A stretch of 64,000 nt of DNA from Marinobacter sp. S6332 (GTDB taxonomy: Bacteria; Pseudomonadota; Gammaproteobacteria; Pseudomonadales; Oleiphilaceae). The stretch is from assembly GCF_023016045.1 (NCBI RefSeq), contig NZ_JALKAP010000002.1, positions 186,001 through 250,000 on the forward strand, written 5' to 3'. The notes below the pieces were generated by a model. The model was given only the letters and a program-made list of their open reading frames with translations, was not told where the DNA came from and did not search any database. Below are positions 2,012-10,166 of the stretch, one piece after another (within the stretch, counting starts at the first letter, position 1; every line of letters starts with the position of its first letter). Made by a program: the position numbers and the translations under genes.

Positions 2012-2038
2012 CCCAGTTCCGTCAGACTCGGAACTGGG
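2012..2038. terminator. Perfect hairpin between convergent genes
   Basis: CCCAGTTCCG at 2012-2021 and its exact complement at 2029-2038 form a 10-bp stem with a 7-nt loop. The right arm is the last codons of the chemoreceptor gene and its TGA stop lies in the loop. No strong T-run follows on either strand, so termination is inferred from position and stem strength. Confidence 0.5.
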
Positions 2039-3962
2039 ATGCCTTGCCTTGCAACGCCAAGAGTAGTTCACTAATTTCATGGCTAGCGGTATCGGAACGC
2101 TTGATCGCCTCAACCGTTGCCTCGGATGAGTGAGCAATGCCCTCAACGCTCACGCTTGCTTTTTCTGCCTGTCGGCCTTCCTGCTCGGCAACCGACGAAA
2201 TACCCAAAGCGCGTTCCTGCAGACTGCTCAGCAACTGATTGATCTGCTCAAAATGCTCATCAGCACGGCGGAACGCTGCAGACGATTCTGCAACCTGTTC
2301 TGATACCTCGCCAATCACCAATACGGCTTGCTTGCTGCCCTGTTGCAAGCCCGCAATGATCGCCTCGATCTCGGTGGTAGACGCCTGTGTTCGGCTGGCC
2401 AGTGTTCTCACCTCATCGGCAACAACCGCAAAACCTCGGCCCGATTCACCTGCTCTGGCCGCCTCTATGGCTGCGTTAAGCGCCAGCAAGTTAGTCTGCT
2501 CTGCAATGGCACCTATAACCGACAACACTGTGGTGATTTGTGTGCTTTGTTTATCGAGTGCACTTACAGCTTCTACGGCCTTTTGAACATTAAGCACAAC
2601 ATCATCGAGGCGCTTCAACACATCGCGGGATATGGCTGCTGTTGCATCACTCTCGGTGCTGACACTTCGCACCGCGCCAGCCATTTCCTCAATATTCTGG
2701 GCAACACCGGCAATGCTGTGGGACATAGCCGCCATGGTTTCGGACACTTCCACCACTTCCTGCTGCTGCGCGCCTACCGCTGCAACCGCATCATGGCTGA
2801 CCTCGCCTTGGGCCCGAGCCTGCCCTACCGCAGATTCCGCAGAGCTCTTAACATCGGTTACCAGCTCTTGAATGCGGGCAATAAACTTGTTCACCCCTCG
2901 GGCCATCTCTGTCAGTTCGTCATTGCCCTTGAGGTTTACACGGCGGGTCAAATCGGCCTCGCCATCAGCAATGCCGCGAATCGCGGAGTTCAAACGTAAA
3001 ACTCTAGGCAGCACGCTACCGCCGAGTACCGCTGCTATCAAAATCAGAAGCACAATCATGGAACTCACAGCAACCAATGTGAGGCTAGATGATAAACCCG
3101 ATGCCTCCGTGCGAAGCGCACCTACCGTCTCGCTGATACGGGATTGCGTATCTGCGCCGATATCGGTGAGTTGCTGCTGAAGCCGCTGATTCACTTGCTC
3201 GGTTTCAGTTTCAAGGGTTTGTCTTGCCGTGTTAATACTGCTCGCAAGCGCGGTACCGAACTCTTTTTCCAACTGTGCTAGATCGCGGTTGATGCCATCC
3301 AGCGCCAACCCGATCTTTAGCTGCCCAATTGCAGAACCTTTGGGCTTAATGTCTGCGGTGATAATCACTACGTTCGAATCACGAGTTGCAGCCTCCAGTA
3401 CGCGGTTTGCCGCCCCTCGACCCTCACCCTGCTCCATAAGAGCAAGTACGCGCTCATCAGTACGATCAACATAACGGGTCAGGCGCTTTCCATACTGGTC
3501 AAAATAGATCGCGAAAAGTACCGACTCTCTCGCATCTGCCAACTCCACAAGATTGGTAAGCCGCGGAACATCCCGATCCCATATCAGCGGCGCGGCAACA
3601 GCTGCCAAAACATCCGCCAGCCCTTGCGCCTCTGCCATAACAGCGTTTCGAACATTCTCTGCGACCTGTTCCTGCTGCTGGCGCTGCTTAAGCGTAAGTT
3701 CCGCAGCAAGCTCACTAACGCTTTCTTCGCGCATGGCCTGCAAGCGCAACCGAACATCATCGCGGGTGGTTTCAAAAGAGTCGCTGAGTTGATCACTGCT
3801 CTGCTCAAGGGCTGAACTAGCAGTGCCTATTAAGCGCTCAACTTGGTTCGTGATCAGCCATTGACTGATCACAACCTGCGCTACACCAGCGACAATAAGC
3901 GCAATAAAGACTGGCCGAATCAGCCGACTGGTGATTAAATTTTTGAAGAAAAGAGAGGCCAT
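2022..3962 (-). CDS. Methyl-accepting chemotaxis protein
   Basis: 646 aa from the ATG at 3960-3962, which has GGGAG seven bases upstream; a TTG two codons earlier is less likely. There is an N-terminal membrane segment (about 17-37), a sensor region of about 250 residues with coiled-coil stretches on both sides, a second membrane segment near 290-312, a HAMP domain, and a long cytoplasmic coiled coil. The signalling tip is at 488-522, beginning [18 protein letters not shown] and ending [10 protein letters not shown]. It would report an unknown periplasmic signal to CheA/CheW. No CheB/CheR-docking pentapeptide is seen at the C-terminus. Confidence 0.93.
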
Positions 3963-4097
3963 AAACAATCTCCCAACACGCTATTCCGGCATCCGGAGCA
4001 GTTGTTATTTTAATTATTGAGATGCATCTTATAGTAGTTGTAGCAAAGTAAATGACAAAGCGGGACCTCTTTATGTAGGGATTTGTTGCATATCTTT

Positions 4098-4117
4098 AAA
4101 AACAGCCCCAAGCGGCT
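4098..4117 (-). terminator. Likely intrinsic terminator of the DUF5666 cluster
   Basis: On the minus strand AGCC and GGCT enclose a 6-nt loop immediately at the stop codon of the last DUF5666 gene, followed by GTTTTT. The stem is short but the T-run is in the right place. Confidence 0.5.
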
Positions 4118-5598
4118 CATTCAAGCTCGACACTTGATGCTTCGTATTGATCCAAGAAATTGGACTTTCGCTTGTATTCAACTTCTATCACAACCTTCTC
4201 GTCACCCTTGAGCAGCGTTTCTAACTGACTGAGAGAAAAATCTTCAAACGCATCGTCTTCGATCCCGATAGACACTCCGAGAATCGTGATAGAAGAATAA
4301 GAAAGACCATCTTTTGCCAGCACACCCACAAGCTGGTACGCATCTTCGGGGCTGTCCTCAAGCTCACGCTCTACCTGAAGGGCTTCAAGATAAATCTTAC
4401 CGTCACCACCTTCTTTCTGCAGGCCAGACACCTCAACTTGAATCGACTCCGCCCCTGGTATCAGGTCACTGAGTAGCAGCGTTTCATCCGTATCATCATC
4501 TGTAATAATTGTTCTCGGAGTTACACTCACTCGAACGCCACCCACCAAAAAGCTATCGGTGCTCAGATCTACAGCGTCTATTGTGCCTGCGACCTCAGCA
4601 TTGCCATCTCTAATTTCAATTTCAGTAGCGTGTACGAAATGGCCGGATACAAATTCACCTTCAACCTGCACTAGCAAACCTTCTTTGAGGTCTTCCAGAG
4701 CTAGATCATCCCACTCTGTCTCTTGTGTTATCTGAATCACCAGCCCATTGAGACCAAACGTCTGGTCAACCTCGTTGTAGCTCGAAGAGACTGGGCCTGC
4801 GATTTCGATATCCTCACCGGCAGGGCGATACCGACGAAAATCATCAAGTTGTATCCGCTTGGCTATAAGCGTGTTGCTTTCCGAGTCTTCACTCCCTTCA
4901 ATCTCAAAATACACTCCGGGCTTCAAATCCTCAGCAGACAGCCCTTCTACAAAACTGCTGTCGTCAAATCTAATCACAACGCCATTCATCGTGAACTGGT
5001 TTGGTCCAACTGAACCCGCGTCAACAGGTCCCTCCAGCTCTACTCGGTTATCACCATAAAACGCAGGGTTAAAACCAATATAACTAGCTCGGTAGTCACC
5101 ATCCGACTGACGCCAAGCGCTGATTCGCACATAGTCACCTTCTGCGAGGGTTGCAAGTGTTCTGTTCTTAAGAACAGTTTGCCGACCGGCAAAAACTTTT
5201 TGCCCATATATTTCGAATGAGACCGACTCCCTACCCGCACCCATTTGCAAATTGGAAACCTTGCCTCGCAGGGTGTCGTCATACTCCATCGAATCTGCAT
5301 CACCCGTACCGTCGGGATGCCACTCGCCTTCAATTCTCAGAATCATTCCTTCGTTAAGGTCGTTTTCCGAGGCAATTCCATCATTGCTTTGCACTTCTCT
5401 GTCTCGGATACCATCCGTAAAAAATTCAACGCCATTCACAAATACGCTGCCAAAGCCCGATACCGGCCCCACACTTGAACCAGTACCACGGATGCCACCG
5501 TCTGCCACTTGATAGTCGCCACCACACGCAGAAAAAAGACCAAGTGTTAGCACGGTCGCTAATGCTACGAGCACACGTTTGCGGGCTATCAGAATCAT
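4117..5598 (-). CDS. DUF5666-domain lipoprotein (paralogue A)
   Basis: 493 aa from the ATG at 5596-5598, preceded by GGAG. A signal peptide ends in a lipobox-like FSAC (Cys25), followed by Gly-rich sequence, so it is a predicted lipoprotein. The mature protein is built of repeated beta-rich units of the DUF5666 type, each with a phrase like 'G.vdavd...F.vnGv.v' and 'l..G..VeVeG', resembling OB-like barrels. The first conserved block (SVGPVSGFGSVFVNG) is nearly the same as in the paralogue at 7007-8437. It is the last gene of a minus-strand cluster with two DUF6502-type genes. The function of this family is unknown. Confidence 0.85.
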   Translation of the reverse strand: MILIARKRVLVALATVLTLGLFSACGGDYQVADGGIRGTGSSVGPVSGFGSVFVNGVEFFTDGIRDREVQSNDGIASENDLNEGMILRIEGEWHPDGTGDADSMEYDDTLRGKVSNLQMGAGRESVSFEIYGQKVFAGRQTVLKNRTLATLAEGDYVRISAWRQSDGDYRASYIGFNPAFYGDNRVELEGPVDAGSVGPNQFTMNGVVIRFDDSSFVEGLSAEDLKPGVYFEIEGSEDSESNTLIAKRIQLDDFRRYRPAGEDIEIAGPVSSSYNEVDQTFGLNGLVIQITQETEWDDLALEDLKEGLLVQVEGEFVSGHFVHATEIEIRDGNAEVAGTIDAVDLSTDSFLVGGVRVSVTPRTIITDDDTDETLLLSDLIPGAESIQVEVSGLQKEGGDGKIYLEALQVERELEDSPEDAYQLVGVLAKDGLSYSSITILGVSIGIEDDAFEDFSLSQLETLLKGDEKVVIEVEYKRKSNFLDQYEASSVELE

Positions 5599-5652
5599 TG
5601 CTCTCTCCGCGCTGGACAAGTCGACTTTGTGTGGTTTTTTTGGTGGCTCGTA

Positions 5653-6054
5653 TCAGACATCGTCGTTATGCCGTCTACCTGCGTTTCTGCCGGGACTATA
5701 CACTTTCCGTCTTACTACTGGTGGGGACTCTAAGCTGGGAGCATCGTGTACATAGGTACTTCGTCTAAGGAGAAGTTGTCCGCTATCCAGTTGTTCAACC
5801 AAACCTTTGCGTAGAAGTTCATTGAGTACCACTACAGGCACAAAACTGGGATTAACTGCATGCACAAGCTGATTAAAGTTAGGCTCATTCTGCGTGTTGG
5901 TTGCGAGTAAGATGGGATGCTCATTCTCGTCAAGGAACGCGATTGCGCTGATCCAATGGCTCACTACTTCCCGGCCAGAAGGGGACAACAGTGTGCTGGC
6001 GAGTTCCGTTGGCTCCCAGCGGCATACAAGTTCTGATTGCTTATCAGGCCTCAT
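5653..6054 (-). CDS. Half-length DUF6502-like protein
   Basis: 133 aa. Its ATG overlaps the TGA of the upstream DUF6502 gene (ATGA), so translation is probably coupled. It aligns by eye with the middle of that neighbour: 'vvS.Wi....f.d....P..L' and 'vvLnELlRkgLVeqldsGqLlLrrstYV' correspond to 'VVSGWVNDAQFKD' and 'VLDELLRVNLVSVHKDTGELSLNQRAYV'. It lacks the N-terminal helix-turn-helix-like part. It may be a dimerisation or modulator subunit of the full-length protein, or a duplicated fragment kept in frame. A 54-nt gap separates it from the following lipoprotein gene. Confidence 0.7.
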   Translation of the reverse strand: MRPDKQSELVCRWEPTELASTLLSPSGREVVSHWISAIAFLDENEHPILLATNTQNEPNFNQLVHAVNPSFVPVVVLNELLRKGLVEQLDSGQLLLRRSTYVHDAPSLESPPVVRRKVYSPGRNAGRRHNDDV

Positions 6055-6929
6055 GACGCGTTCTCTTGGCGAGAACTGAGCAAGTGTGTTTCTTTACACT
6101 GTGGATCTTCAAAGTAAAACACGCTAACACCTGTTCTGATTGATTCCGACGACGAACCAGCAATCGGTTCCCCTGATACATCGCGATCTTTTGGCCCTAG
6201 CCATGAATCCAACTGCTCAAGCATTTTCTGGGATTGTTCCGCAGCGTGTATGCGCCAAGCGTCCATAACCTCTGAAGGTATGTTGTTATAGGTCAACGTG
6301 CGCTGAAAAAGTGGCTGTTGGCCGCTTTTGCCACAAGCTAAGTTATGATCCATTGTGGCTATAAGGTCTGACACATCCTCTCCAAAAATTTGAAGCATTT
6401 TTTGACTGTCGCCAGCAGGTACATAGGCTCTTTGGTTTAAAGATAGCTCACCAGTGTCTTTATGCACAGACACTAGATTAACCCGCAATAATTCATCCAA
6501 CACAGCACGCGGTGGCATATCCCCACTGTACTTTTTTGCCAGTTGACAAAAACTCACGGGACCCTCAAAAGGAAGTTCAGCGGGTTCGCCAGTGGCATCT
6601 TTAAACTGTGCATCGTTTACCCAGCCAGAGACAACGCGAGATGCCCGGTTCGTATTGAGCACTTCAAAGGTAGCAGTGTGACGCCCTGCTAGAATCTCGC
6701 GCTGGCGCTTAACTTCTTTTCGCGTTAGCCCTGTCATAACCGCCGCCGCAGAGTCGGTTGCTTTGCGTCGATCACCAGAGAAATCTTTCAGCGCTGCTTC
6801 CACATATGCGCGTTTAACCAATTCGGAAAACTCACCAAAAGGAATACCATTACGCAAAAGCAGCCTCGCAAGGGGCCGCAAAATGCGGAACAGAGCCTGA
6901 TGTAATGGGTTGGTGCGGGGATCAGTCAT
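6051..6929 (-). CDS. DUF6502 family protein with HTH-like N-terminus
   Basis: 292 aa. The N-terminal 80 residues (LLRNGIPFGEFSELVKRAYV, then AAVMTGLTRKEVKRQRE) look like a winged helix-turn-helix, which suggests a DNA-binding regulator. The middle has the DUF6502 core (SFCQLAKKYSGDMPPRAVLDELLR). The family is known to occur next to DUF5666 genes. No good ribosome-binding site precedes the ATG. Instead a TGGGA-N6-TCCCA palindrome lies 4-19 bases upstream, together with a tiny in-phase leader ORF whose stop overlaps this start. It follows the DUF5666 gene at 7007-8437 by 77 bases and may share its transcript. Confidence 0.75.
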   Translation of the reverse strand: MTDPRTNPLHQALFRILRPLARLLLRNGIPFGEFSELVKRAYVEAALKDFSGDRRKATDSAAAVMTGLTRKEVKRQREILAGRHTATFEVLNTNRASRVVSGWVNDAQFKDATGEPAELPFEGPVSFCQLAKKYSGDMPPRAVLDELLRVNLVSVHKDTGELSLNQRAYVPAGDSQKMLQIFGEDVSDLIATMDHNLACGKSGQQPLFQRTLTYNNIPSEVMDAWRIHAAEQSQKMLEQLDSWLGPKDRDVSGEPIAGSSSESIRTGVSVFYFEDPQCKETHLLSSRQENAS

Positions 6930-6932
6930 GTT

Positions 6933-6948
6933 TGGGATTGTATTCCCA
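6933..6948. promoter_or_regulatory. TGGGA-N6-TCCCA palindrome at the DUF6502 start
   Basis: TGGGA and TCCCA arms (6933-6937, 6944-6948) with a 6-nt spacer sit where the ribosome-binding site of the DUF6502 gene would be. Two sites of the same design lie upstream of the DUF5666 gene at 8497-8538. A shared operator, possibly bound by the DUF6502 protein itself, is an inference. Confidence 0.5.
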
Positions 6949-7006
6949 TGGCGCCACTAAAAGCCAGCAGTGCGGGCAAGATCAACTCACCCGCACCGCC
7001 AGCGCA

Positions 7007-8437
7007 TCACTGATCTGGACTATCAATCAACTCATACTCGCCAGCGCCCGTGGCACAATACTCAAGTTCCACCGCACTCTGGGGCTCCAAGTCGCCAAGG
7101 CTAAAGAGGCCGGGCAGTATCTCCAAGTTCATAACGCGGATTGAGCCTGAATCAGTCACTGTAATTCTGGCTTCCAGTTCTGCGCAATCATCATCGCTTT
7201 GGCCTTCGTACTTCACAACGGCAGCTTCTAGATAGCCACCATCGCTGTCACGCTGAAAACCTTCTACTTCCAGATAGTCACCGACGTTGAAGCTTTGGAT
7301 ATCGAGAACCCGTGTACGGCGCTCATCATCGTTGCCTTCGTCGATAAGCGTGCTGGCCGTTAACTGAACCTTAACGCCACCGACCATGAGTATTTCATTT
7401 ACTAAATCTATCGACTCAACAGCGCCTTCCAGTTCGACATTCGATTCCTGACCTTCGATGTCTTCAGCATACAAAACACCCTCACGAAACTCGCCTTCCA
7501 CCTGAACATGCATGCCGTTTTGCAGGCTCTCTTCGCGGATATCATCAAACTCTGAGTTATCTGTAACCCTCACCAGTACGCCGTTAATATAGAACTGGCG
7601 GTTAGCTTCGTCATAGTCATACAAGTCGCCGGATACTTCGACGTCATCACCTTCATCATCCAACCAATGGCTTTCCTTATCGATTTCTGCAGCCAGAAGC
7701 GTTTGTTTATCGGTAGACAACGTCCCTTCTACTTCCACCGTCATGCCATCAGCCAAACTGTCTAAAACAAACCCGCCTTCCGGCTGTGCGCTTGTATAGT
7801 CGATCGGGAAGTTTCTGATCGTGAAGGTTTGGGCCAGCTTGTCTAAGTTCTCAACGACGCCCTCGATCTCTACGTCGTTAGCGCCCTCAAAATCAAAGTC
7901 GATCCCTCTCACGCCCACGTAGCTTGCTCGGAACTTACCTTCCGCTGTTCGCCAGCCACTAATGCGAACCCGATAATCCGCGGCTCTACTTGCCAACTCA
8001 ATGGGTGCAACACCACGGAAAACAGTTTGGCCATCAACAATTACGGTCTGACCAAGCATATTGATCTCGCCCATACGACTGCTGGCATCCCAAGACATTG
8101 AGCTAACTGGACCACGTAAGGTGTCGTCATAGCTGACGACCCTCGCTTCGCCTTCTCCTTGTCGACCCCAATCGCCCTGAACTTTCAAGATCATGCCCTT
8201 GTCCAGCTGCGCTTCACGCACGACACCGTCATCACTAAGAACAGTGCCGTCTGTTCTAAACCTTGTGCCATTCACATACACACTGCCAAAACCAGAGATT
8301 GGGCCGACACTGGTACCCGACGAAGTTTGACTCGGGCTAGAGCTCTCGGAACCACTACCACCACAGGCAATGAGCGAGCTTGCAAGAGCGCCGGTTAAAG
8401 CGAACTTAACGGCTGAAGCTAAAAGGTTGTGTTTCAT
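7007..8437 (-). CDS. DUF5666-domain lipoprotein (paralogue B)
   Basis: 476 aa from the ATG at 8435-8437 with GGAG seven bases upstream. The signal peptide ends in SLIAC (Cys25), followed by GGSGSESSS, a typical lipoprotein start with a flexible tether. The mature part repeats DUF5666 units, including 'SVGPISGFGSVYVNG', 'VEIEGVVENLD', 'VEVSGDLYDYDE' and 'VELEGAVESIDL'. It is strongly acidic, as expected for an exported protein in a marine organism. It is the promoter-proximal gene of the cluster; two palindromes lie 60-101 bases upstream of its start. Its role is unknown. Confidence 0.85.
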   Translation of the reverse strand: MKHNLLASAVKFALTGALASSLIACGGSGSESSSPSQTSSGTSVGPISGFGSVYVNGTRFRTDGTVLSDDGVVREAQLDKGMILKVQGDWGRQGEGEARVVSYDDTLRGPVSSMSWDASSRMGEINMLGQTVIVDGQTVFRGVAPIELASRAADYRVRISGWRTAEGKFRASYVGVRGIDFDFEGANDVEIEGVVENLDKLAQTFTIRNFPIDYTSAQPEGGFVLDSLADGMTVEVEGTLSTDKQTLLAAEIDKESHWLDDEGDDVEVSGDLYDYDEANRQFYINGVLVRVTDNSEFDDIREESLQNGMHVQVEGEFREGVLYAEDIEGQESNVELEGAVESIDLVNEILMVGGVKVQLTASTLIDEGNDDERRTRVLDIQSFNVGDYLEVEGFQRDSDGGYLEAAVVKYEGQSDDDCAELEARITVTDSGSIRVMNLEILPGLFSLGDLEPQSAVELEYCATGAGEYELIDSPDQ

Positions 8438-8496
8438 CACGTATCTCCGGGCTACTGTACAAAGTTTAGGCAATCAAATTTGACGCCCCAGCGAAG

Positions 8497-8538
8497 TGGG
8501 ATTATTTTCCCAAATTCAATATTGGGAATTTATTCCCA
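8497..8538. promoter_or_regulatory. Two TGGGA-N6-TCCCA palindromes upstream of the DUF5666 cluster
   Basis: Sites at 8497-8512 and 8523-8538 each have TGGGA and TCCCA arms with a 6-nt A/T spacer, centres 26 bp apart. They match the site at 6933-6948. Their position before the first gene of the cluster suits an operator or activator site. Confidence 0.55.
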
Positions 8539-8635
8539 TTTAGCGCTTTTGTCCAGCGTCCTTTACTTTTAATTTATGAACTTTCAGACAGTCTGAGCGT
8601 AACCTTATGACCATCAACAGATTGCGAGATGAGAA

Positions 8636-8843: not shown

Positions 8844-9191
8844 CTACCACCCCCCTGTTAGTTGCTGTAGTTGCAGGTTGAGTCGCTCTACCTCTTTGCG
8901 CATTCCCTGAACTTCATCTAACAGCTCTAGGGACATGGCAAGGCCGGGCAGGTTCATCTTCAAGTCGCGCTGCAAACGTCTGGCCTTGTGCAGGCGAGCA
9001 AGCGCTGCAACATCAAACAGCCACTGGCGTGCTTCCTCTGCCGGCTCTACCGGAGCGATGATGCCGTAGCTTACCAGCTTGATCACGAACTCTGCGTGGC
9101 ACTCACCACGCTCGCACACCTCGTGAAGGGTAAAGGTGCTGCCATCTGAGTCCATTACTTCAACGGTCAGAATACTGTTTCTATCACTCAT
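8844..9191 (-). CDS. cbpM: Chaperone modulator CbpM
   Basis: 115 aa. A MerR-like N-terminal fold ('EFVIKLVSYGIIAPV', then 'WLFDVAALARLHKARRLQRDL') and a C-terminal coiled coil ('LDEVQGMRKEVERLNLQLQQL') identify the CbpM/YccW family. In E. coli CbpM binds the J domain of CbpA and blocks its DnaK co-chaperone and DNA-binding activities. It lies 15 bases downstream of cbpA in the same direction with GGGGAG before its ATG, which is the usual cbpA-cbpM operon. Confidence 0.88.
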   Translation of the reverse strand: MSDRNSILTVEVMDSDGSTFTLHEVCERGECHAEFVIKLVSYGIIAPVEPAEEARQWLFDVAALARLHKARRLQRDLKMNLPGLAMSLELLDEVQGMRKEVERLNLQLQQLTGGW

Positions 9192-9206
9192 GTTTTAAGC
9201 TCCCCT

Positions 9207-10166
9207 TCACAGGTGCAGTTTGCTGCGTGGGTTGAATGCTTTCTCAGCCTCGGCAAGCTGCTCGTAGAGCTTTTCTGCTTCCGCAGAATGCTGCTCCGGT
9301 ATGGCTATCTGTAGAATAACAATCTGATCGCCCGGATGCTTGCCCGGCAAGCCTTTGCCTTTTAAGCGGAGCTTGCGGCCGGAGGACGTTCCCTTGGGTA
9401 CTTTTACATTCACCTTTGAGCCCACGGTTGGCACGGTAACGGTCGCACCCAGCGCGGCCTCCCAAGGTGCCACCGGAACGGTCACAACAACATCATGCCC
9501 TTCTACACTAAACAGTGGATGCGGTGCCAATTCGATTTCTATAAGCAAGTCACCCGCTGCTGCGCCACCATAACCGGGAGACCCTTGGCCTTTCAGGCGC
9601 AAATGCTGCCCTTCGCGCATTCCAGCGGGGATTTTCACTTTCAGTGTTTTCTGCCGGGCAACAACACGGCCCTGTTCGTCGGCTTCGTGCACGGCAAAGG
9701 AAACCTGTTTCTCGGACCCGTTAAACACTTCCTCAAGGAACAGAGCCAACCGTGCATGAACGTCTTCACCGCGCATGCGCATGTTCTGCCGGAAATCACC
9801 AGCACCCGAACCTGCGCCTTGTCCGCCACCAAACATCTGCTCAAAAAAATCACTGAACTGTCGAGAATCCGCATCGGTGTACCCACCGCCGCCAAACCCG
9901 GAAGCACTTTGCCAACCGGGAGGTGGCTGGAAAGAGCCGTCAGACTGCGCGCCATATTTACGCAACTGATCGTATTCCGCGCGTTTTTCAGGGTCCTTCA
10001 GTACTTCGTAGGCCTCGCCAAGATCTTTGAATTTTTCGTCGGCATTGTCTTCTTTACTGACATCCGGATGATATTTCCGCGCAAGCTTCCGGTAGGATTT
10101 TTTGATTTCCTCGGGGGAGGCAGACTCGCTCACACCAAGTACGGCGTAATAGTCTTTGAAGTCCAT
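9207..10166 (-). CDS. cbpA: DnaJ-type co-chaperone / curved DNA-binding protein CbpA
   Basis: 319 aa. The J domain (residues 1-70) carries the HPD motif in '[15 protein letters not shown]'. A Gly/Phe-rich linker (about 90-125) follows, then two C-terminal beta-sandwich substrate-binding domains ('[19 protein letters not shown]', '[19 protein letters not shown]'). The cysteine-rich zinc domain of DnaJ is absent, as in CbpA. It stimulates DnaK and binds curved DNA in the nucleoid. GAGGAG precedes the ATG. The neighbouring cbpM gene would regulate its product by direct binding. Confidence 0.93.

Follow-up and report, generated by a model that had tools for sequence, protein, structure and literature searches.

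Candidate DUF6502 autorepressors with a palindromic operator and a tagged exported partner in Marinobacter and other Pseudomonadota

The window analysed here is a stretch of 64,000 nucleotides from Marinobacter sp. S6332 (contig NZ_JALKAP010000002.1, positions 186,001 to 250,000), in which a gene of the uncharacterised DUF6502 family stands between genes for exported DUF5666 lipoproteins and beside copies of the palindrome TGGGA-N6-TCCCA. We propose that DUF6502 is an autorepressor that acts at this operator and has a tagged exported partner, the tag most likely reporting the state of that partner; as the best joint explanation of the evidence, this reading has in our estimate a probability of about 0.78. 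Comparison of genomes shows where the sites lie and with what geometry, that they co-occur with DUF6502 and also stand unlinked to it, and that the tag is restricted to the downstream partner. On that comparative basis the DNA part of the model is well supported, and a widespread module of operator, regulator and tagged partner is supported. For the family and its exported partners this yields a candidate function together with a DNA motif and a set of genes that may form the regulon, and the reach of DUF6502 is wide: about a quarter of the genomes sampled across the Gammaproteobacteria (99/369) and six sampled genomes from other classes of the phylum.

Under the proposed mechanism, DUF6502 proteins would be one-component regulators that bind DNA, probably as dimers, at TTGGGA-N6-TCCCAA or, in other clades, TTGGGG-N7-CCCCAA and GTGGGA-N5-TCCCAC. 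Bound DUF6502 would occlude the -10 element of its own promoter, giving negative autoregulation, and at the promoters of other exported proteins it would repress a small surface-protein regulon. In the window, a unit under promoter P1 would comprise the first DUF5666 lipoprotein gene with two operators, and a unit under promoter P2 would comprise DUF6502, a fragment of 133 amino acids (aa) and the second DUF5666 lipoprotein gene with one operator. The tag, or a peptide cut from it, would most likely inform DUF6502 of the state or abundance of the partner. Binding and dimerisation of DUF6502, repression rather than activation, leaderless mRNA, ligand binding and sensing of the tag are the steps that we infer.

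The features of the cluster are given in window coordinates and all lie on the minus strand. The DUF6502 gene (6051-6929) encodes the proposed dimeric autorepressor of 292 aa, which scores 203 bits (E 5e-60) against Pfam PF20112, where the gathering cut-off is 27, and so belongs to the family. The first exported DUF5666 lipoprotein (7007-8437) has 476 aa with tandem domains resembling the oligonucleotide/oligosaccharide-binding (OB) fold, and the second (4117-5598), of 493 aa, is encoded 3' of DUF6502. They score 119.9 and 132.6 bits (E 5e-35 and 6e-39) against PF18914, also with a cut-off of 27, in four stretches each. This order and strand, with two flanking multi-domain DUF5666 proteins, had been described in a sequence-only reading of the same DNA and stands, as do the lipoboxes named there (LIAC and FSAC, each with a signal peptide, read by eye). 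The second DUF6502-type protein of that reading holds up in part: the 133-aa copy (5653-6054) scores 19.8 bits (E 4e-4), below the family cut-off of 27, and covers profile positions 91-164 only.

The three TGGGA-N6-TCCCA sites claimed by the same reading are present and exact. Site 1 (TGGGAATAAATTCCCA, 8523-8538) holds the predicted -10 element of P1 at 8532-8527; site 2 (TGGGAAAATAATCCCA, 8497-8512) is centred 26 bp from site 1, just beyond the predicted P1 transcription start; and site 3 (TGGGAATACAATCCCA, 6933-6948) precedes DUF6502 and holds the predicted -10 element of P2, TACAAT, at 6942-6937. Exact matches number five in the whole genome of 4,143,526 bases: three at the cluster and a G+C-rich pair on another contig, 78 bp from each other. 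With one mismatch allowed, three sites per 64 kb are unremarkable (shuffle mean 2.13; 38 of 100 shuffles reach three), and so what counts is that the sites are exact and conserved. Orthologous clusters keep the palindrome upstream: site 3 stands before DUF6502 in 30/30 named, fetched Marinobacter loci and the upstream pair in 28/30, the two sites of the pair being 25-27 bp apart in all 29 loci that have it, the window included. An origin of the likeness by chance or local repeat, with which the one-mismatch shuffles would agree, is ruled out by this conservation at the same places, the exact sites also being nearly unique in the genome.

Genome by genome, the site follows DUF6502. Our genus-level sample comprised 38 relatives, the genome itself included, of which 25 belong to Marinobacter and 13 lie outside. 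Full-length DUF6502 is encoded in 17 of the 25, and the AT-spaced site (TGGGAW6TCCCA) occurs in the same 17, located at the cluster; the eight Marinobacter genomes without full-length DUF6502, one of which (G008) has a family fragment only, lack it altogether (0/8). Outside the genus, G030 has both DUF6502 and the site, and G035 has DUF6502 without an exact site. Across the class the AT-spaced site was found in 47/99 genomes with DUF6502 versus 10/270 without (Fisher p 4e-22; tallies made by hand), while a reversed-pattern control was unbiased (3/99 versus 13/270, p 0.57). Two of the ten DUF6502-free genomes with a site (G085, G223) are incomplete and carry DUF5666. The link between regulator and operator that the sequence-only reading had proposed is thus backed by genome-level co-occurrence with a control, and its suggestion of an autoregulated surface-lipoprotein system gains support from comparisons that reach far outside the genus. 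What follows on promoter logic, on unlinked sites, on the tag and on a resemblance to HetR goes beyond it.

Operator-like sites also occur away from DUF6502. DUF5666 is encoded in 94/369 genomes, 83 of which are among the 99 with DUF6502 (p 3e-53), and of 20 loci fetched for DUF5666 genes that stand apart from DUF6502, 14 have the operator, which suggests action in trans; two of these 20 loci, L255 with the operator and L254 without, come from genomes without detected DUF6502. The remote operator sites comprised 33 loci among the matches listed, of which L288, preceding a DUF6502 gene, was excluded from the lipoprotein count. In genomes with DUF6502, 7/22 other remote AT-spaced sites precede a lipoprotein gene, against 47/900 random positions; the corresponding count is 0/8 in DUF6502-free genomes and 0/2 for two further loci from incomplete DUF5666 genomes without DUF6502. 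The targets include a DUF5666 protein (L256) and three lipoproteins, one with a beta-propeller, one an MtrC-like multihaem cytochrome and one immunoglobulin (Ig)-like.

These unlinked sites at DUF5666 and other exported-protein genes, together with the sites in 10/270 genomes without detected DUF6502, could also mean that another conserved regulator binds the palindrome and that DUF6502 is a passenger sharing its regulon. We regard this as improbable, since the site tracks DUF6502 from genome to genome, both in the genus and in the class, and stands at the DUF6502 start also at loci in which DUF5666 went undetected (L154, L157, L150). In addition, a helix-turn-helix is predicted within DUF6502 itself; the sequence-only reading had thought the N-terminus to look like a winged one, and a helix-turn-helix is present there in a structure model of medium confidence.

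A few remote sites have other surroundings. At L259 and L276 the site is flanked by a ferredoxin/oxidoreductase gene and a divergent membrane-protein gene; L272 shows a ferredoxin/oxidoreductase gene at the site and L282 a membrane-protein gene, the genomes of L276 and L282 being incomplete with no DUF6502 seen. At L279, in a DUF6502-free genome, the same pattern (near 2497) lies 44 nt before a gene that is MraZ-like by eye. MraZ binds TGGG repeats, and the L279 site probably belongs to a different regulator.

Operators of related design precede more distant DUF6502 genes. Scoring as palindromes GGG...CCC sequences with at least 5/6 complementary arm positions between -100 and +12, we found one at 36 of 71 distant genes, compared with a mean of 0.86 and a maximum of 5 in 200 rounds of shuffling and with 71/4566 other windows of the same loci. 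Under a looser rule that adds the promoter of a directly upstream DUF5666 gene, the count rises to 46/71; a few of these 46 palindromes, such as that of L134, are G+C-rich and may be chance. Variants include TTGGGG-N7-CCCCAA at Woeseiaceae-type loci and CGGGA-N6-TCCCG at L150. A phylum-wide search added eight loci (L289-L296), six of them from other classes of Pseudomonadota, and 7/8 have an upstream palindrome, with N5 spacers such as GTGGGA-N5-TCCCAC. The predicted DUF6502 operator can be written GGG-N8-CCC in most cases and with N7 or N9 in some clades, and the comparisons indicate that the operator design at DUF6502 is old.

The geometry of the sites points to repression. At P1 the predicted -35 element TGGACA (8550-8555) is separated by 17 nt from TAAATT, the -10 element within site 1, and site 2 follows past the transcription start; in 28 of the 29 Marinobacter loci with the pair, TGGACA is found no more than 20 nt upstream of site 1. 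At P2 the predicted -10 element, TACAAT or TATAAT, lies in site 3, with the ATG 7 nt beyond that element; the site stands 19-20 nt from the DUF6502 start in Marinobacter loci. A palindrome within 26 nt of the start was found for 54 DUF6502 genes (31/31 in Marinobacter, 23/71 distant), of which 52 carry a -10-like hexamer within the palindrome, 52 have their start codon 6-9 nt further on and one has a Shine-Dalgarno-like run; a -35-like hexamer is present at 18 of the 23 distant genes. This geometry suggests that these mRNAs are leaderless, and since the site overlaps the predicted -10 element, bound protein should block RNA polymerase. In Marinobacter and part of its distant relatives, the sequences thus suggest leaderless, autorepressed DUF6502 transcripts. 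The cI gene of phage lambda is such a leaderless, autorepressed regulator gene, and DUF6502 resembles it in having an operator over its promoter and a start codon on or adjacent to the base where transcription is predicted to begin; however, the proteins are unrelated, and the DUF6502 arrangement recurs in 52 genes of a single family, mostly from Marinobacter.

Alternatively, DUF6502 could be an activator that recruits polymerase to promoters with a poor -35 element, as the weak one of Marinobacter P2 might allow. HetR, the top structural match discussed below, is described as exerting positive feedback on its own gene (PMC4649674). Activation is nevertheless unlikely, as the palindrome covers the -10 element itself, where a bound dimer should exclude sigma, and P1 and 18/23 distant promoters have a fair -35 element and no obvious need of help.

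Further evidence for the proposed autorepressor and its partner is a short tag, G-I-x-G-T-G, which lies soon after the signal peptide of the exported protein encoded just downstream of DUF6502. In the window it is carried by the second DUF5666 lipoprotein as GGIRGTG (5480-5499, after the lipobox), the sole match to the GGIxGTG pattern in this genome. The first, upstream lipoprotein has no tag, and neither does any of the 42 readable upstream copies, while 30/30 readable downstream copies in Marinobacter have it. Altogether, the tag is present in 74/79 DUF5666 proteins encoded downstream of DUF6502 versus 0/58 encoded upstream or unlinked, as counted with a regular expression (G[IVLMTPE]x[GR][TS]G) that was tightened after results were seen. 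The Marinobacter rows are from close relatives and not independent; with them set aside, the counts for distant and remote rows are 44/49 versus 0/30. Our first expression, G..[GR][TS]G, also scored poly-glycine (e.g. GGGGSG) after the lipobox Cys and matched 13/28 upstream genes in Marinobacter and 1/14 distant ones; G..[GR]TG gives 70/79 versus 1/58, the one being a remote gene. The five downstream DUF5666 proteins without the tag are from L136, L078, L077 (two) and L168. These counts drop unreadable N-termini (one downstream and two upstream in Marinobacter, six and two among the distant loci, 5/21 remote) and one tagged gene that overlaps DUF6502.

The tag is not confined to DUF5666 proteins. 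By our rule 15/71 distant DUF6502 genes have no adjoining DUF5666 gene, although L134 has one on closer reading, and it was on reading the downstream proteins without DUF5666 (fn3/Ig, Calx-beta and PPC domains, and unknowns) that the shared tag was spotted. A readable downstream open reading frame (ORF) exists at 68 of the 71 distant loci; 59 are lipobox-like, and 54 of these have the tag in its loose form, including two (L082, L142) in which the first expression caught a glycine run, though the real tag follows. All ten lipobox-type downstream genes without DUF5666 are tagged, whereas lipobox-like ORFs elsewhere in the distant loci have no tag under the first expression (0/152). The lipobox rule recognised only 13/31 Marinobacter downstream genes (all 13 tagged) and is loose, in that the L173 protein may not be lipidated. 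Tiny proteins of 56 and 60 aa carry the tag as well (L148 with GIVGSG, L152 with GITGTG). Of the eight phylum-wide loci, six show it clearly, L296 has a loose version (GSGGTG) and at L290 it is unreadable. Some partners have tandem arrays: GMGGTG five times (L289), GIGGTG four times (L293), six copies (L175) and GLGGTG five times (L174). These arrays (DRGIGGTG, ERGMGGTG, RGLGGTG) precede the first DUF5666 domain in L174, L175, L289 (ORF 2298+) and L293 (ORF 2288+), and they resemble multi-copy peptide precursors. At the DNA level, 46/136 sites with a GIGGTG-type pattern lie within 2 kb of DUF6502; away from it the pattern occurs at 0.28 sites per genome with DUF6502 versus 0.23 in others, which we take as chance. 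These comparisons tie the tag to proximity to DUF6502 and neither to the structure of DUF5666 nor to export as such.

As the tag follows adjacency to DUF6502 rather than domain or export, we favour a sensing role. A regulator linked to a short exported tag independently of the domains of the partner is unusual, and it points to a sensing step. The main rival, which holds out better than any other, is that the tag is a sorting, processing or surface-display signal without regulatory role and that DUF6502 is merely encoded alongside. The tag lies within 40 residues past the lipobox-like site, where export and processing signals lie, the arrays could be a processed or modified stretch, and at one locus, L163, the next same-strand gene behind DUF6502 (4922-6787, plus strand) encodes an S49 (SppA-type) peptidase. 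Yet the DUF5666 lipoproteins encoded upstream or elsewhere, mostly with the same operator, carry no tag despite the same expected export route. L163 aside, no processing enzyme appeared among the few neighbours scanned with Pfam, most neighbours being outside that scan; conserved neighbours other than DUF5666 were looked for by eye and by Pfam on few genes. On balance sensing of the tag remains our preferred reading, with the sorting signal a serious minority view.

Several observations weigh against an autorepressor with a small exported-protein regulon. An exact AT-spaced site is absent from 52/99 genomes with DUF6502, in part since half-sites or different spacers are used in some clades, and 25/71 distant DUF6502 genes have no palindrome even under the looser rule. 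Exported proteins are the theme of the remote sites, with 15/22 not fitting as they have no recognisable lipoprotein gene behind them. The -35 element of Marinobacter P2 is weak, 1/31 reaching 4/6 positions, and in 48/71 distant genes the palindrome lies away from the start, so that the leaderless design is not family-wide. Finally, the structure model of DUF6502 is of medium confidence, with a predicted local distance difference test score (pLDDT) of 72 and a predicted template modelling score (pTM) of 0.47 from 35 sequences.

In that model, helices 59-66 and 70-80 form the helix-turn-helix, accompanied by two long helices and, at 127-164, by a second module that is winged-helix-like; R70 is invariant across 69 aligned members. 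A Foldseek search with the model placed HetR at ranks 1-3 with probabilities of 0.95-0.98 and E values of 0.004-0.017, none below 0.001; rank 4 had a probability of 0.23, and the highest beyond HetR among the matches listed was 0.63. VIA-align likewise placed HetR, whose fold was compared as three domains (DNA-binding, flap and hood), at ranks 1-5 with Z 7.2-8.1 over 219-234 residues, but at a root-mean-square deviation of 10-11 A, and Z of this size is also common without a clear match, above all in helical models. The rows after HetR were mostly helix-turn-helix domains of sigma factors (Z about 7, about 55 residues).

Sequence comparisons, run with background, shuffled and reversed controls, gave no significant match to HetR. 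HMMER at full sensitivity ranked Fischerella HetR first of 673 yet at E 0.85, with Anabaena HetR eighth; hhalign gave a probability of 0.5%, and HetR ranked 42-59 of 496 among background controls. With our own profile aligner HetR reached a marginal Z of 3.8-4.9 under lax gaps, where 150 background ORFs peaked at 3.5 and 4.3, and -0.8 to 2.7 under strict gaps (background maxima 4.7 and 4.5); an alignment with the DUF6502 consensus has 54 identities in 236 columns and is illustrative only. No solved structure matches DUF6502 significantly by sequence. The Pfam HetR model had no match in this genome or in 14 control genomes, which is uninformative either way, and no further HetR relatives were found in plasmids and viral contigs. 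HetR is treated here as what DUF6502 may work like, by analogy, and not as its family.

The analogy may extend to DNA and ligand. HetR is a dimer with an N-terminal helix-turn-helix that needs a GGG...CCC palindrome and binds its own promoter (PMC4649674), Arg62, Glu71 and Lys73 contacting the site GGG-N5-CCC (PMC4649674, PMC4192349); it is inhibited by RGSGR/RGTGR peptides from small proteins (PMC7761841, PMC12756182, PMC7476756), among which PatX is exported and cut to HRGTGR (PMC7761841, PMC12756182). HetR entries are the top structural matches of the DUF6502 model, though the match is weak, and the partners of DUF6502 are exported and bear G-I-x-G-T-G, in some cases arrayed (e.g. as DRGIGGTG or ERGLGGTG). 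Unlike HetR, the predicted DUF6502 operator has an N8 spacer (N7 or N9 in some clades), its sites overlap -10 elements, suggesting repression, and the tag lacks the final R of PatS and PatX. To our knowledge, DUF6502 hosts have no multicellular development. We reject a literal PatS/PatX peptide: although RGTG occurs within GGIRGTG, the form of the tag in Marinobacter, RG[ST]G[RK] is found in none of 101 readable DUF5666 N-termini (of 137 ORFs) and RG[ST]G in 30.

It is conceivable, though doubtful, that DUF6502 is a HetR-like receptor-repressor outside the cyanobacteria, with the GIxGTG tag of its exported partner as a PatX-like ligand. A peptide, sometimes encoded in tandem repeats, would then be released from the surface protein and enter cells, or an unexported precursor would stay inside; either way it would set surface-protein expression. 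If so, a peptide-sensing circuit would be widespread in Gram-negative bacteria, and if the resemblance to HetR is real, a cyanobacterial regulator of pattern formation would have relatives in single-celled bacteria, opening its origin to study. In a literature search that left most subscription papers outside, we found no paper naming DUF6502 or PF20112, none recognisable among the titles listed as dealing with HetR homologues outside cyanobacteria and none on a repressor of a Marinobacter surface lipoprotein operon. DUF5666 (PF18914) was named only in passing in the available parts of papers, with nothing on its function.

Both window lipoproteins are members of this family of exported OB-fold-repeat proteins. 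The model of the first (pLDDT 84.5, pTM 0.79) shows small beta domains strung together, with matches to the OB folds of CusF, PriB and SSB (Z 8-9 over 60-85 residues). Between its gene and the DUF6502 promoter lies a predicted terminator-like hairpin (7003-6963) with an 18-pair stem followed by a T-rich tail, and as it separates them, the cluster probably forms two transcription units with one type of operator. The partial DUF6502 copy, which has the middle module only and lies between DUF6502 and the second DUF5666 gene, is possibly an accessory protein or modulator; 18/31 Marinobacter loci, the window included, list a similar short ORF as their second DUF6502 member, and in G008 a short fragment of the family is present without any full-length DUF6502. 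NCBIfam (E 0.01) and PADLOC assigned no family to the window proteins tested. The closest fetched record, from M. salexigens D2M19, is 97% identical across DUF6502. Adjoining the cluster are a gene for a methyl-accepting chemotaxis protein (2022-3968) and a MerR_2/DnaJ pair (8844-10166), which we take to be CbpM/CbpA-like.

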